Origin: Norana najaformis
Lineage: Eukaryota; Annelida; Clitellata; Crassiclitellata; Hormogastridae
NCBI GenBank assembly: GCA_964023275.1
Contig: OZ029920.1
Coordinates: forward strand, 3,525,438-3,589,437
Length of the DNA: 64,000 nt
Reading direction: 5' to 3'
The position numbers were made by a program, and so were the translations under genes. Each line of letters begins with the position of its first letter. Position 1 is the first letter of the stretch. The notes under the pieces were generated by a model. That model worked only from the letters and a program-made list of their open reading frames with translations, made no database searches and was not told the origin of the DNA. Positions 5,690 through 61,455 of this stretch are shown in pieces.

Positions 5690-5850
5690 CTCCTTTCTCT
5701 ACCCCTCTCACTGCTCCGCAGGCGCCTGGAGACTGTACTGCTTAACAGCGATTTTACTCCTACGGGTCGGAAGCACTTTTGTTCAGTTTATCCTCTAAGA
5801 GGCGCTTTATAAATCTCAAATTACAAATACAATTGTGGCTATCAGAGCCG
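5690..5850 (+). mobile_element. Short 3' retroelement fragment, pair of 22085-22240
   Basis: CAGGCGCCTGGAGACTGTAC, a TTTTACTCCTACGGGTCGGA segment, TTATCCTCTAAGAGGCGCTT and TATAAATCTCAAATTACAAA match the copy at 22085-22240 in order. The GGCGCTTTATAAAT ending with a short repetitive ATTACAA tail resembles the 3' terminus of L2/CR1-like LINEs or the SINEs they mobilise. It is inserted after a TTTAACGACATCTTGC box. Confidence 0.5.
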
Positions 5851-5897
5851 TTGACGCCGACCTTAATTTACCCTAGGCCAACCAAACACGCAAGATA

Positions 5898-6011
5898 TAG
5901 TAGTTCCTCAGTTTAACGACAGCTTATGGCATCAAAGGCCATTGCCGTCGCCATCCTCCTTTATCCAGGTTTGGGCTTGGCGCTACCTCCAAACAAGGCA
6001 GTGGCGAAGTT
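5898..6011 (+). mobile_element. Element A copy, reverse-complement form
   Basis: Full-length copy from TAGTAGTTCCTCAG to GGCAGTGGCGAAGTT with the CATCCTCCTTTATCCAGG core. It interrupts a composite-repeat block whose uninterrupted relatives lie at 11640-11720 and 47040-47100. Confidence 0.75.
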
Positions 6012-11771: not shown

Positions 11772-12886
11772 TTTGTTCTGTTCTGTTCTGTTCTCAGCCT
11801 TCCTCGTCCCGAGATTCGGCCGCATCATGCACAATGTTCCTCCAGTGTCCTCTGTCTTCCACCAGCCTGAGCATCTCCTCCATTGTTAGCCCAGTCCATG
11901 CCCTGATGTTGCCCAACCAGTTTATTCTCGGTCTTCCTCTTTTCCGTCCTCCCGGTATTGTGCCTTGTATTATCTCCTTCTCGATGCATGTTCCCTCCTT
12001 CCTCATGATGTGGCCAAAATAGATCAATTTCCTTTTCCTTACTGTCTTCAAAAGATTCCTCTCTACTCCAGCCGCTTCCAGTACCCATTCATTTGACCGC
12101 ATTTCCATCCACGATATTTGCATGATCATTCTTAGACATTTCATCTCGAATGCTTCTATCCTCCTCTCTTCCTCCTTCCTCAAAGTCCAACTCTCACATC
12201 CGTACAGTGCCACCGGTAATACTAATGTCATCAAGAGCCTCATCTTTGTTACCAGTGATATGCCATGGCTTTTCCATATTTTTTTAAGATTTGTAGCCAT
12301 TGCATATCCCTTTGCAAGTCGTACCCTTATCTCTGCTCCACAATCGCTGTCCCTGTCGATCCTCGAGCCCAAGTACATGAAAGTATTCACCTGCTCCACT
12401 GTTTCCTGACCTATGCTGATCTGACACCTGGTTTCTGCTGTTGTCATGACCTTTGTTTTATCCGTGTTAATCCGCATTCCATATTTCCTTCCTGCTCTGT
12501 CTAATCTTTCAACCAGTGTTTGTAATTCCTTCTCAGATTCTGTTATTAGTACTATGTCGTCTGCATATCTTAAGTTTGTCAACCGCCTTCCCCCTATCTG
12601 CACTCCTCCGTCAAAACCCTCCAAAGCCTCTCTCATTACCCTCTCCGCCAGAATGTTAAATAAACTTGGAGACAACACGCATCCTTGTCTCACCCCTCTC
12701 CTGACTCTGAACTCTCCAGATAGTGTTCCTGCCACTTTGATCTTTGCGTTTTGTTTCTTGTACAGCTTGGATAACAACTTTATTATGTGTCCAGGAAATC
12801 CCATTTCTATCATTGTTGTCCATAATGTTTCATGTGCTATTGAATCAAAAGCTTTTTTGAAGTCTACAAAGCCTTTGATTCAGTCT
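11772..12886 (-). mobile_element. LINE reverse transcriptase fragment, 5'-truncated
   Basis: A single open frame of 339 codons (12813 to 11794, minus) encodes the distal part of a non-LTR retrotransposon polymerase. Motif B reads RGVRQGCVLSPSLF (residues 39-52) and the catalytic box YADD is at 83-86. It is followed by a YLGSRI thumb segment and a C-terminal region with YGCESWTLRKEEERRI, YFGHIMR and GRPRINWLGNI. Upstream of the first Met the frame extends to about 12870 and contains motif A (VDFKKAFDSI). The endonuclease and fingers are missing. The stop codon is followed directly by a (GAACA)4-type tail at 11772-11793, so there is essentially no 3' UTR. The frame has no internal stops, suggesting a fairly young copy. 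The clade is uncertain; an RTE- or Jockey-like group is my guess from the C-terminus. Confidence 0.85.
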
Positions 12887-32459: not shown

Positions 32460-33159
32460 AAATATTATTCAGTATTTAATGACATCTTTTGTCCGTCAGA
32501 GCCGTTAACGTCGACTTTAGCTTAATGGAAAGAACATGCTGATTTACACGCATGACATAGCTTAATAAAATGAAGAATAAATAGCGTCGAAAAAAGCGAA
32601 TTAAAGGTGTGTTACAATTTGACTTGATCTAACAAACGAATGAGAACGACCGATATATATATATATTCCTCTAAAGTGCTAAAAACGTGTGCAAACAGAG
32701 GCTAATAGTTTCTTAGCAATATGAAATGTTCACGACATATTACGGCTTCCTAATATTTCACAGTTTCGACCAATGTGAGCTTAATAGGCATTTGGTTGGT
32801 AGCTTCTGTTGGACGACGCTGTGTCATAACGAAGATGATTAGCATCGCTCTCCTCTTTTACCCAAGCTTTGGGGTTGCACCAATTTGATTTCAATATTAG
32901 AGAATTCTACGGCCAGACATTTTCTGCTTTTGCTAAATGTGTCTGCCACTTGGTCTTAGTAACTTAGTCTTAAGACATGAATGACTAAATCATGATTTCC
33001 ACTTTCGCTCATTTCTTGGCGACTTTTTCTGCCATGTTTTGCTATCTTCATATTCTTCGTTTTCTTTAGGACTGCATTTTATTTCACAATTTATTATTAC
33101 AACTCTCTCCAAAACCGTTCATGTGGTCTGGAACCATTAGTAGGGCTTGCGTTTCATAA
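32460..33159 (+). repeat. Composite repeat tract, left flank of DNA transposon
   Basis: Boxes ATTTAATGACATCTTTTGTC (32468), AAAGCGAATTAAAGGTGTGT (about 32593), an A2 relative (about 32800-32890) and a CTTTTGCTAAATGTGTCTGC word (32926), in the same order as 1920-2400 and 47580-48180. The DNA transposon at 33160 interrupts the next segment (ACCGTTCATGTGGTCTGGAA). Confidence 0.6.
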
Positions 33160-33276
33160 CACTGGCCAACACATAATTTGTTGCCTCAAATGTTAGAACT
33201 GTTTCTGGGTATATTTGACCTGCTGATTCCAGAAAAGGCACCAGTTTTCTCCCAGCAGGTCTAGTTTTCGAGATAT
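33160..33276. repeat. Left terminal inverted repeat
   Basis: Begins CACTGGCCAACACATAATTT and ends CAGGTCTAGTTTTCGAGATA-T. It aligns with the reverse complement of 35657-35783 over its length with several small gaps. Confidence 0.85.
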
Positions 33277-33357
33277 AGAACATTATGCCATATACCAGTC
33301 CTTGACTCTGCTCGCCCATAAAACATAAGGCTATAGCTATAATTATGTAGTGCTCAA

Positions 33358-33363
33358 TTTATT
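33358..33363 (-). promoter_or_regulatory. Candidate polyadenylation signal of the transposon gene
   Basis: TTTATT on the plus strand (AATAAA on the coding strand), about 113 bp downstream of the stop codon and inside the element. Confidence 0.45.
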
Positions 33364-33475
33364 ATGTGATACACTAAATAAACATAATAATACAAATACT
33401 TAAAAGAAAATGGTAGTACCTGAAACTGTACTTATATGATACCAAACAGAACAAGTTTGTTATAAAAATTTCAAG

Positions 33476-35179
33476 TCATTCGACACCGAAGAAGCTCCTT
33501 TTGTACGATTTCCGAGTGTGGCATCTGCCGGAACAATCGCGCATAATATTCCAGCAATAGTCTGCCATCATGTGTGCATCCCATCTTCCTTGATATCGAT
33601 TTTCCATTGTTTTGATGTCTTGGTGAAATCTTTCACCTTGTTCTTCGCTGAAGTCACCAAGATTCTCTGGAAAGCGATCTAAGTGACTGTGGAGATAATG
33701 GACTTTAATGCTCATGTTGCAGCCAAGCTTGTTGAAATGAAGAAGCATATCCTCTACTAGTTGTGCATAATTGTCTGCCTTCTTGTTGCCAAGAAAATTT
33801 TTAGTTACAAGAACAAAGGAAGACCAGGCACAAGATTCGATTTCATTCATTGATGGTATGAAAAGTGGGTCATTCATAAGTTGCCTGATCTGTGGACCAT
33901 CGAAGATTCCAGCCTTCAATTTTTCCATTGTAATTCCTGGTAACTTGTGTACTATGTATTCGAAGCATGAACCTTCTTTATTCAAAGCCCTGACAAATTG
34001 TTTCATCAGGCCTAGCTTTATATGTAGTGGTGGCAGTATGATCCTATCTCGTGCCACCAAAGATTCCTTGATTACATTTTGAGCTCCAACCACCATGTCT
34101 TTCCTCGAAGGCCAATCTTTTCTTGTCCAATGTTCATGCTTGGCTCTACTGTCCCAAAGACACAAAAAGCAGGGATACTTTGTGTAGCCACTTTGTTGAC
34201 CAAGGAGGAAATTTACCATCTTCAAGTCTACACAAATTACCCATTGATGTTCTTTGTATTTTATCTTTTCCAGTACTAAAGAGATGGCATTGTACTCTTC
34301 TTTCATCCTGGTGGAGTGACCGATTGGAATAGAACCAAATTTGTTGCCGTTATTTAAAAGCACACATTTCAGACTACGTTTTGAACTGTCGATAAAAAGA
34401 CGCCACTCATCTGGGCTGTAATCCGACAGACCAATTTTCTTCAATAAGTTGCTGATGTCATTACAGAATACTACGTTGTTGTCTTCGGTAAAGAATGGCA
34501 GCAAATCCTTTTCTCTGTTTCTATAAATTGTAATTTTCGTTCCAGGCTGAAGTGCATTCTTTTCCTTTAGTCTGGACGCAAGCAATTTAGAGGACTCTTT
34601 GGAAAGATTTAAGTCCCTGATCAGATCACTCAACTCTTTTTGGTCAAAACGTTCACTGTGTGAAGTTGATTGGAAATCACTGTCACTGCCCCCACTTTCT
34701 TCACTTTCGTCATCTTGTCCGATATTGGACATGCAAGTCTCATCGTCTGAGAGCTGAGGTAGTTCGCGAAAAGGTGGAACTGGTACAATATCCGAATGCG
34801 GAACAGGTCTCCTGGCTGAAGGTATATCAGGGTAAGACAACTTGTGACGATTATTTCGATTGATGCCTATGATATTAACCATACAAAAGTAACAGTCGTC
34901 GAAGTGGTTTATCTGTTCCCTCCAAACCATCGGTACACCAAATTTCAGGCAGCTTCTCTTTCCAGTTGTTCAGTGGCGCAACTGTTCAATACAAGTTTTG
35001 CATACTGTATGAGGAGCCCATTGCTTATCTTGATCTCCAAGTTTGACACCAAAATAACCTACATATGCTCTTTTTACAAACTCAGAAATCGGTTTCCTGT
35101 TTGCTTTTAGTGTGTATTCCCCACAAATGTAGCAGAATATGTCTGGATGGTTAATGCAGCTCCGTCTGGAAGTAGCCAT
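33476..35179 (-). pseudogene. Transposase-like protein of unknown family, one nonsense codon
   Basis: The frame starts at ATG 35179 and runs 567 codons to a stop at 33476, interrupted only by TGA at codon 70 (34970-34972), where family members I recall have Trp. N-terminal zinc-ligand pattern: C16-x2-C19 and C60-x2-C63, then C96-x2-C99. A Ser/Asp/Glu-rich linker follows (about 142-170). The core has three acidic positions typical of an RNase-H-fold DDE/D nuclease: D264 in RLFIDSS, D318 in VICVDLKM, and E512/E513/E516 in FSEEQGERFHQDI. An inserted C337-x2-C340 (YPCFLCLWDSR) and H386 (PPLHIKLGL) lie between. I recall near-identical proteins as high-copy, unnamed genes in many invertebrates. The flanking TIRs and the acidic triad support a transposase; that function is inference. 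A downstream Met at codon 84 could start a shorter product of 484 residues lacking the first zinc motif. Confidence 0.75.
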
Positions 35180-35656
35180 AACCTTAAGGATGTTCGCATC
35201 TGAGGAATTAAGTGACTAACCTAAAAAATAGTAAGAACATGTAGTTATTTAATGTTCACATTCACATATTGTTCTTGCGACCAACTCTTAATATGCCCTA
35301 AGACGACTGCGGCTGCTCTAGCTTTCAGGAGGCGGTTTATATAGGCTATAAATGCTGACTTCAGCATAATCTATTTACATAGTTCGAAACCATGAAACGC
35401 TGTATAAGCACAAATAAATTCTAAATGAGGCCATGAATTTAGTGCTGAGTAAGCTGTAGGCTACGGAATAGTTATTTCGTTGAATCAGCAATATCTCAGC
35501 ACGCGGCAAGATATGCTAATTTTACATTATAAGGATGTAGGCATTATATGAATCAGCAAGAATTATAATTAGCCATAAATAAACTTATTATGACATTTTA
35601 GTTTTGTCAAAGACATCGTTTAAAGAGTGGACTGGGTTTTCTTTACAAAATCGACG

Positions 35657-35783
35657 ATATCTCAGAAACTAGACCTGATGCACTCAATCCAATGACATTT
35701 TCTGAATCAGCGCCCAAAATTACCCCAAGAACAGGTCTAAAACCGAAGGCAACAAGAAAAAAAATTTTTTCTGTTGGCCAGTG
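35657..35783. repeat. Right terminal inverted repeat
   Basis: Begins ATATCTCAGAAACTAGACCT and ends TTCTGTTGGCCAGTG. It includes an A/T homopolymer stretch (35757-35770) absent from the left TIR. Confidence 0.85.
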
Positions 35784-36575
35784 AAATAGCATTTGGATGG
35801 AAAGACATAGGCACTTAAAGCAAACAAAGATTAGCCTATTAACTGCAATTGTAGCTGTAATATTGATTCGTGTAACGACATCCTACGTAGAAATCATTGG
35901 CAATTGAAGCAAAAGGTGTGCTACTCAGTGTCGCAAAAAATGATATAAAGGAATGTGCTATCGAGCGTTTGACGACATCTTAATTGCTTCTATATTTAAT
36001 TTCATTATTAAAAGCACTTATAATGCGCACAAGTTCAGTAAATCTGTTTACTGACATCTTACGCCATCAAGGGCCGTTGACGTCGCCCTCCTCCTTCACG
36101 ATGGCTTCGGACTGGCACTACCGACTTAAAGGCAGTGGTTGACATAGATAACAATGCTGAGAACGTATTACATGGAGTGCGCGAAAATAAGCAGTATATG
36201 AATTTAGAAAAAAAGCGTGTTAAAGGTGTCTAAACGCTACTAATATTTCGTGTACTATCGAATGTTTACCGACATCTTACGGTATCAAAGACCGTTTACA
36301 CCTCCCTCCTCTTTTACCATGGCTTCGGACTGGCACTACCCGATTAAAGGCAGTGGTGGAATATAGGTAACAACGGTCAGAACATATATTATATGGAGAG
36401 CGCGAAATGAGCAATGTACGAAGTTAGGAAAAAAGCGAATTAAAGGTTTTCTAAACGTTACTAATATTTCGCGTACCATCGAATGTTTAACGATATCCTG
36501 TGACCGCCTCGTTGTTGACATTTCTAAAGTGAACCTCCTGTTTATTTAAGCTAATAGCAGGTTAGGTTCCCACAG
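35784..36575 (+). repeat. Composite repeat tract with two A-like modules
   Basis: Boxes GTGTAACGACATCCTACG (about 35871), GTTTGACGACATCTTAAT (about 35967), then two A/A2-like modules (36042-36143 and 36262-36360; both CTTCGGACTGGCACTACC), each followed by a CGTGTTAAAGGTGTCTAAAC or CGAATTAAAGGTTTTCTAAA box. The two modules plus boxes form a direct repeat of about 220 bp. Confidence 0.6.
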
Positions 36576-40951: not shown

Positions 40952-41642
40952 TCGATAGATAAACTCGATTTTCACGCAGAGCCTATGTAACGGCCTTGAC
41001 GGGCACAAGACAGTCGATAATACTAAAAATAATAGACTGAGTTTAGTTGAGGACTACATCTGCTGCCAAACTGTTAGACCACAAAGTGTTCAAGTTCATC
41101 GTAAGAGTTCATGCTAACCCAGACAGTAATATTCATTGGGGTTAGAGCGGCCCAAGGTCATACCACTGTTCGCTATTGATGGTACGTTATGGATCAAGTG
41201 TGGCTCCTACGAACGTGTCTGTCAGGGAACAGGTATGATGATAGATGAATAGTTTCTGGCCAGAAAAAGCATAAAGGATATAGAGGAATGACGACTGCAA
41301 TATAAATTTATGAAGTCTTTGTGTCTTCTTTTCACTGTCGCACATTTTAAACGACCTGTTGCTAGTGGTTTCCTAGGATCTCGTCTGAGCCAGAGGCGTG
41401 TTTAGCAAAGGCAAACCATCGCTATAGAACAACATATCGAAACTGAAACTGTGAGATTACCAACAAACTGATATAATTGATGGAGGTAACTGAGTGTAAA
41501 TGAAATATGTCGCACAAGACCAACACTTAAATGTATCTAATACAGCTGATTACTTCAGTCTTTAACGACATCTAGTGGCTGTCACAGCCGTTGACGTCGA
41601 CCTTAATTTACCTTGTAGCAAACAATTGATTTCTTGAAAGTG

Positions 41643-41738
41643 ATAGTAGTAGTTCCTCAGTTTAACGACAGCTTATGCCCTCCTCCTTTATCCAGCTTGG
41701 GACTGGCACTACCCACAAACAAGGCAATGGCGGAGTTT
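41643..41738 (+). mobile_element. Element A copy with internal deletion
   Basis: TAGTAGTAGTTCCTCAGTTT and GGCAATGGCGGAGTTT ends are intact, but about 20-25 bp between CTTATG and CCCTCCTCC (the ATCAAAGGCCGTTGCCGTCG part) are missing. Confidence 0.75.
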
Positions 41739-52825: not shown

Positions 52826-53094
52826 GCCTGCGTGCGTCCCTGCGTGCGTGCCTGCGTGCGTGCCTGCGTGCGTGCCTGCGTGCGTGCCTGCGTGCGTGCC
52901 TGCGTGCGTGCCTGCGTGCGTGCCTGCGTGCGTGCGTGCCTCCCTGCCTGCGTGCGTGCCTGCGTGCGTGCCTGCGTGCGTGCGTGCCTCCCTGCCTGCG
53001 TGCGTGCCTGCGTGCGTGCCTGCGTGCGTGCGTGCCTCCCTGCCTGCGTGCGTGCCTGCGTGCGTGCCTGCGTGCGTGCCTGCGTGCGTGCCTG
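52826..53094. repeat. (CGTGCGTGCCTG)n minisatellite with 48-bp higher order
   Basis: Twelve-bp units CGTGCGTGCCTG. A variant unit containing GTGCCTCCCTGCCTG occurs at about 52941, 52989 and 53037, giving a 48-bp higher-order period repeated three times. The array sits inside a minus-strand S-repeat. The long frames on both strands (ARTQ, RACV) are artefacts. Confidence 0.92.
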
Positions 53095-61383: not shown

Positions 61384-61455
61384 GGGGATGTAGCTCAGCG
61401 GTAGAGCGTTCGCTTTGCATGCGAAAGGCCCCGGGTTCGAGACCCGGCATCTCCA
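61384..61455 (+). tRNA. tRNA-Ala, anticodon UGC
   Basis: A 72-nt cloverleaf. Acceptor GGGGATG pairs with CATCTCC and includes the G3:U70 wobble that marks alanine identity; the discriminator is A. The D arm begins GCTCAGCGGTAGAGC, the anticodon loop TTTGCAT gives UGC, and the T arm is CCGGGTTCGAGACCCGG. Box A (TAGCTCAGCGGTAGAGCG) and box B (GGTTCGAGACC) are intact. There is no intron and no encoded CCA, and a T run (CTTTTATTT) starts within 10 bp downstream as a Pol III terminator. All stems pair fully, so a functional gene is likely. Confidence 0.97.

Follow-up and report, generated by a model that had tools for sequence, protein, structure and literature searches.

What is the long reading frame that lies between inverted ends at positions 33,160 to 35,783 of a 64,000-nucleotide stretch of the annelid Norana najaformis (contig OZ029920.1, positions 3,525,438 to 3,589,437; the whole stretch is called the window here), and if it belongs to a mobile element, to which group? 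A first reading of the letters, referred to below as the original prediction, had proposed a nearly intact DNA transposon whose superfamily was not evident and which might represent an unclassified group. The inverted ends, the arrangement of two aspartates, a glutamate and a CxxC motif, and the predicted fold all support a DNA transposon with a transposase; the unclassified superfamily was rejected, as the motif set, ends and fold identify a clade. The element is quite probably a broken, non-autonomous cut-and-paste DNA transposon of the CMC/Transib (CMCT) clade, best placed with Chapaev3. Membership of the clade is near certain and membership of Chapaev3 likely, because the protein carries the C(2)C, LH and H(4)H motifs, its catalytic core is predicted to adopt the RAG1/Transib fold and the ends read CAC...GTG. 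Coordinates of the features are collected in Table 1.

The 12-bp sequence CACTGGCCAACA occurs exactly at 33160-33171 on the plus strand and at 35772-35783 on the minus strand, as originally noted, and these are its only perfect copies in the window; sites with two or fewer mismatches number seven, against 3.6 expected by chance. The termini thus read CACTGG...CCAGTG, with the 5'-CA...TG-3' of the CMCT clade. Beyond them, imperfect inverted similarity runs inward in a pairwise alignment for 117 positions at the left end and 127 at the right, in agreement with the roughly 120 bp first proposed. The local alignment of these terminal inverted repeats (TIRs) scores 50, a value that 5,000 first-order Markov resamples of the two 150-bp ends never attained (their best was 35). 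When placements of matched geometry were drawn at random from the window, 10 of 1,790 did attain the TIR score, all of them at two sites, with starts at 5844-5901 and 41633-41671, within a dispersed repeat outside the ends of the element; such placements can exceed the score because of dispersed-repeat similarity, which is not that of TIRs. That the inverted ends are a chance occurrence, or part of a different, nested repeat, is hardly credible: the abundance of the dispersed repeat in both orientations speaks for it, but the element's ends are no part of that repeat, the resamples stay below the observed score, and the transposase fold leads one to expect CAC/GTG termini. The dispersed repeat itself is about 220 bp long and gives 42 blastn pieces (E ≤ 1e-5) in 64 kb; it is found at 36045-36485, including a tandem pair at 36045 and 36263 that is 82% identical, and in 40 further blast pieces.

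No target duplication had been reported at first, and a perfect one is indeed absent; the flanks, A-TAA-element-AAA-T, nevertheless offer an imperfect candidate in which two of the three duplicated bases agree. The outer A and T fit the Chapaev3 insertion rule, TWA between A and T, as stated in an excerpt of PMC4079192. Both the boundaries and the duplication length are read from one copy and this one imperfect site.

The transposase frame begins with an ATG at 35179 and ends with a stop at 33476-33478, and it is here that the original picture of a nearly intact element with a single 567-codon frame fails, as a TGA interrupts the frame at codon 70, a position occupied by an invariant tryptophan (W70) in the 28 aligned relatives (alignment A1), and leaves a longest open reading frame (ORF) of 484 amino acids. 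The first match in the protein collection, P0001, is an uninterrupted 567-residue relative with 96.5% identity over its entire length (tblastn), so that uninterrupted copies exist, presumably in the same or a near genome. To judge from the sequence, the TGA would cut the N-terminal domain, and re-initiation at Met84 would give a 484-residue protein that lacks it; the copy at hand is likeliest a non-autonomous relic, which an intact copy might still mobilise. TATATAA upstream and AATAAA downstream of the gene are motif matches only.

The protein search returned 2,444 matches at E ≤ 1e-3, and the homologues described here, together with all residue conservation counts, are the best 120 of these. 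For none of the 120 is a Pfam domain precomputed or a function named, in keeping with the original view of a widespread, multi-copy and unnamed protein. An organism is named for eight of them: Pyrocoelia pectoralis (two), Callosobruchus analis, Rhineura floridana, Onthophagus taurus, Caligus rogercresseyi, Hydra vulgaris and one bacterial metagenome-assembled genome (MAG), and the named homologues are annotated solely as uncharacterized or hypothetical proteins. Three clusters at 90% identity hold 378 (P0056), 128 (P0110) and 112 (P0055) member sequences. The Hydra protein is 77.1% identical to that of the lizard Rhineura, which is 62.2-67.9% identical to four beetle proteins, a relatedness discordant with that of the hosts that would fit horizontal transfer; such transfer has been reported for Chapaev3 (excerpt of PMC4079192). 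These figures also bear on whether the protein comes from a multi-copy gene of the host, or from a transposase that was domesticated, with incidental inverted ends. We regard this as very improbable: the 28 aligned members are strongly conserved and the annotations uninformative, both of which are compatible with it, but the exact inverted ends flank the frame on its two sides at 316 and 604 bp, the clusters are large, and the identities are at odds with the host relationships. The homologue labelled as a bacterial MAG (P0098) lies on a 2.7-kb contig and is probably eukaryotic contamination. No relatives emerged from pattern-based scans of IMG/VR (queries P0001, A1 and P0056) and of GTDB genome contigs (query A1), nor from tblastn against phages and plasmids, and a prokaryotic or viral origin was rejected in view of these results. 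A TIR pattern scan of IMG/VR returned three contigs; none of them resembles the element in tblastn or blastn comparisons, and they were dismissed as chance matches.

The catalytic core, residues 176-556, is predicted to have a RAG1/Transib-type fold, and its conserved residues agree with that model. D264, D318, C337, C340, H386, H499, E513, H519, E526 and D540 are present in all 120 homologues, E516 and L385 in 119 each and H494 in 118, and the C(2)C, LH and H(4)H motifs are thereby preserved almost throughout. Of the acidic sites first proposed (D264, D318 and E512-516), the two aspartates and the glutamates at 513 and 516 hold, whereas position 512 is not kept as glutamate (E in 79 sequences, D in 41). 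Of these two candidates for the catalytic glutamate we favour E516 over E513, from the Transib/RAG1 sequence around that residue. From where the strands and helices lie, and from the fold match, D264, D318 and E516 (or E513) would be expected to cluster, and the three acidic sites with the CxxC fit the ribonuclease H (RNase H)-fold DDE enzyme that had been envisaged. The sequence also shows the arrangement given for the CMCT clade in PMC12730594, in which C(2)C and H(3-4)H motifs separate the second D from the E of the putative DDE catalytic triad.

Among the closest known systems are the Transib transposase (HzTransib, PDB 6pqx) and RAG1, the enzyme by which antibody genes are put together. 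Mouse RAG1 has the catalytic residues D600, D708 and E962 and the zinc pairs C727/C730 and H937/H942 (excerpt of PMC4914335). The distance from the second aspartate to the first cysteine is 19 in both proteins, and the Cx2C and Hx4H spacings are the same. They differ in the gap between the two aspartates (54 here, 108 in RAG1), in the distance from the last histidine to the glutamate (17 or 14 here, 20 in RAG1) and in sequence, with 10-11% identity in the best rows. H386 may be the equivalent of H795, an active-site residue of RAG1 according to an excerpt of PMC7204232.

Within the clade, the Chapaev3 elements Merrow, Garfield and Conan (excerpts of PMC4079192, here and for the comparisons that follow) offer the closest description. 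The C(2)C, LH and H(4)H motifs are characteristic of Chapaev, the ends of which are invariably CAC...GTG and the duplications generally 3-4 bp; all of these motifs and the ends are present here. Merrow_PM (2,451 bp, 78+484 amino acids) and Garfield_BM (2,289 bp, 78+478) fall at 2.3-2.5 kb and 556-562 residues, close to the 2,624 bp and 567 residues of the present element; shared with Chapaev3 as well are similarities across hosts inconsistent with host phylogeny, and the insertion site resembles the TWA type in its outer A and T, with one of the three duplication bases differing. Merrow and Garfield have two exons, unlike the single frame seen here, and most other Chapaev3 transposases are single-exon. 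For Caligus rogercresseyi, one of the hosts named above, an excerpt of PMC7878743 gives 7,607 annotated CMC-Chapaev-3 copies, and it is our guess that these belong to the present family.

The likeness to Chapaev3 was judged against published descriptions of motifs, ends, size and insertion site. Against this placement, the duplication is imperfect at the sole site seen, and DUF1280 (PF06918), the Pfam family assigned to Chapaev in an excerpt of PMC3985635, matches none of 28 members at E ≤ 1. Transposase_21, named there for EnSpm/CACTA, matches none of the 28 at that threshold either. At E ≤ 10 the ORF of the window matched just one Pfam family, an unrelated one, and sequence searches of the PDB gave an unrelated best hit (E 0.87) with the 484-residue ORF and nothing with the full-length profile A1. 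A separate lineage of the CMC/Transib clade, be it a superfamily of its own or a member of Mirage, EnSpm, Transib or the animal clade related to CNEST, could account for the missing DUF1280, the imperfect duplication and the lack of functionally named relatives among the 120 homologues, and a 2026 paper describes unclassified animal transposases that form a CMC clade (excerpt of PMC12810828). We nonetheless consider it unlikely, given that length, motif set and CAC/GTG ends fit Chapaev3, as do the A-TAA...AAA-T flanks but for one duplication base. Transib makes a 5-bp duplication, which does not fit the five-base flanks found here (CATAA on the left, AAATA on the right). A CNEST-type CMC element was rejected on size, ends and duplication, CNEST being about 7.2 kb long with CACGG ends and a 2-bp TA duplication (excerpt of PMC12810828). 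Chapaev3 remains the likely home of the element.

The N-terminal part of the protein is a predicted zinc domain resembling ZAD (zf-AD), known from the arthropod ZAD-ZNF regulators. ZAD domains are the top four of 17 Foldseek matches to the N-terminal fold and six of the seven VIA-align entries listed, and the first and second CxxC are in register with those of the M1BP ZAD. Pfam zf-AD matches 14 of 16 real N-terminal pieces at E ≤ 10 (best E 4.6e-4) against none of ten cysteine-preserving shuffles, and 13 of 28 full-length members at E ≤ 1 (best 2.9e-3); the curated cut-off of 28 bits is not reached by the N-terminal piece of P0001 (18.2 bits). Chapaev3 is characterised by an N-terminal Chapa zinc domain of the RAG1 type. 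The N-terminal profile A2 matches the RAG1 N-terminal domain (21wb) at E 0.54 and ZAD at E 0.55, neither significant alone, and three scans with Pfam RAG1_imp_bd gave E 0.011 in one of 28, 0.5 in one of 10 and 0.046 in one of 16. Other results count against the link: a column-permuted control profile found two unrelated matches (E 0.14 and 0.15) better than those to RAG1 and ZAD, the unrelated SQS_PSY (one of 28, E 6.7e-4) outdoes zf-AD in the full-length scan, and FYVE, in five of 16 N-terminal pieces, has a better best E (8.4e-5) than zf-AD. FYVE was set aside as a zinc-ligand look-alike, with fewer members matched and no place among the fold matches listed. The sequence matches to RAG1 and ZAD count only by virtue of which domains they hit, of their register and of the independent fold result. 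A further CxxC, C96/C99 (34883-34894, minus strand; residues 96-99), is found in 119 of the 120 homologues, with one gap; it can be aligned with a CxxC in the N-terminal domain of RAG1 and falls outside the region covered by the ZAD structure matches.

ZAD has a dimerising role, and transposases and host regulators have the BED domain in common. The THAP domain is likewise common to both (excerpt of PMC9810180). We tentatively raise the possibility, which we hold to be somewhat less probable than its opposite, that the transposase N-terminal zinc domain, the Chapa/RAG1 N-terminal domain and ZAD are one homologous module, and that the dimerisation domain of the insect ZAD-ZNF proteins came from a Chapaev/RAG-type transposon.

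In the RAG and Transib systems the ends are synapsed, the CAC tip is nicked, hairpins form on the flanking DNA and the 3' ends are joined. By analogy, intact copies of the present element would encode one transposase of about 567 residues, with the ZAD/Chapa-like N-terminal zinc domain, the further CxxC and a RAG1/Transib-type core (about 176-556), in which D264, D318 and E516 (or E513) would serve as ligands of the metal ions, while a structural zinc would sit between the pairs C337/C340 and H494/H499. Two subunits may bind and synapse the inverted ends of about 120 bp and nick at the CAC tip, probably with hairpins left on the flanking DNA as with RAG and Transib; the excised 3' ends would be joined at a new A-TWA-T-like site with a 3-bp stagger, giving a 3-bp duplication. 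The copy described here has lost its full-length enzyme through the TGA, and would move only with transposase from an intact relative.

Table 1. Positions in the window of the element, its ends, its frame and the putative functional residues.
Feature	Position	Strand	Remarks
Whole element	33160..35783	- (coding strand)	2,624 bp; exact 12-bp inverted ends and extended inverted similarity
TIR, low-coordinate end (3' of gene)	33160..33276	+	about 117 bp, imperfect; pairwise alignment
TIR, high-coordinate end (5' of gene)	35657..35783	-	about 127 bp, imperfect, about 10-bp A/T insertion; pairwise alignment
Candidate target duplication TAA	33157..33159		A at 33156 precedes; sequence and Chapaev3 rule A-TWA (excerpt of PMC4079192)
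Candidate duplication partner AAA	35784..35786		one mismatch to TAA; T at 35787 follows; sequence
Transposase frame	33476..35179	-	567 codons and terminal stop, interrupted once; tblastn of P0001, 96.5% over 567 residues
In-frame TGA, codon 70	34970..34972	-	each of the 28 A1 sequences has Trp here
Longest intact ORF	33476..34930	-	484 residues, start downstream of the TGA
N-terminal zinc domain, ZAD-like (predicted)	34949..35155	-	residues 9-77; C16xxC19, C60xxC63; broken in this copy by the TGA
RAG1/Transib-like catalytic core	33512..34654	-	residues 176-556; predicted fold
D264, first putative catalytic Asp	34388..34390	-	on first RNase H strand (259-265)
D318, second putative catalytic Asp	34226..34228	-	directly after strand 314-316
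C337xxC340	34160..34171	-	19 residues after D318
H386 of LH motif	34022..34024	-	conservation and published motif
H494-x4-H499 motif	33683..33700	-	conservation and published motif
E513...E516, candidate catalytic Glu	33632..33643	-	start of helix 511-528

Elsewhere in the window, a 339-residue ORF at 11794-12813 (minus strand) looks like part of a non-long-terminal-repeat reverse transcriptase, with a YADD-type motif read by eye; a tRNA lies at 61384-61455 (plus strand; Rfam RF00005, 70.5 bits); and a 12-bp tandem array, GCCTGCGTGCGT, of 22 copies at 52826-53094 is found within long repetitive minus-strand ORFs.

On present evidence, the proteins of beetles, a copepod, Hydra and a lizard that bear the label uncharacterized or hypothetical form a transposase family with the RAG1/Transib fold. 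Genome annotation can mask this family as transposable-element sequence, and it is usable as a relative in work on the origin of RAG1. If the link between its N-terminal domain, ZAD and the RAG1 N-terminal domain is true, it would point to a source, open to test, from which a very large family of insect regulators drew its dimerisation domain.
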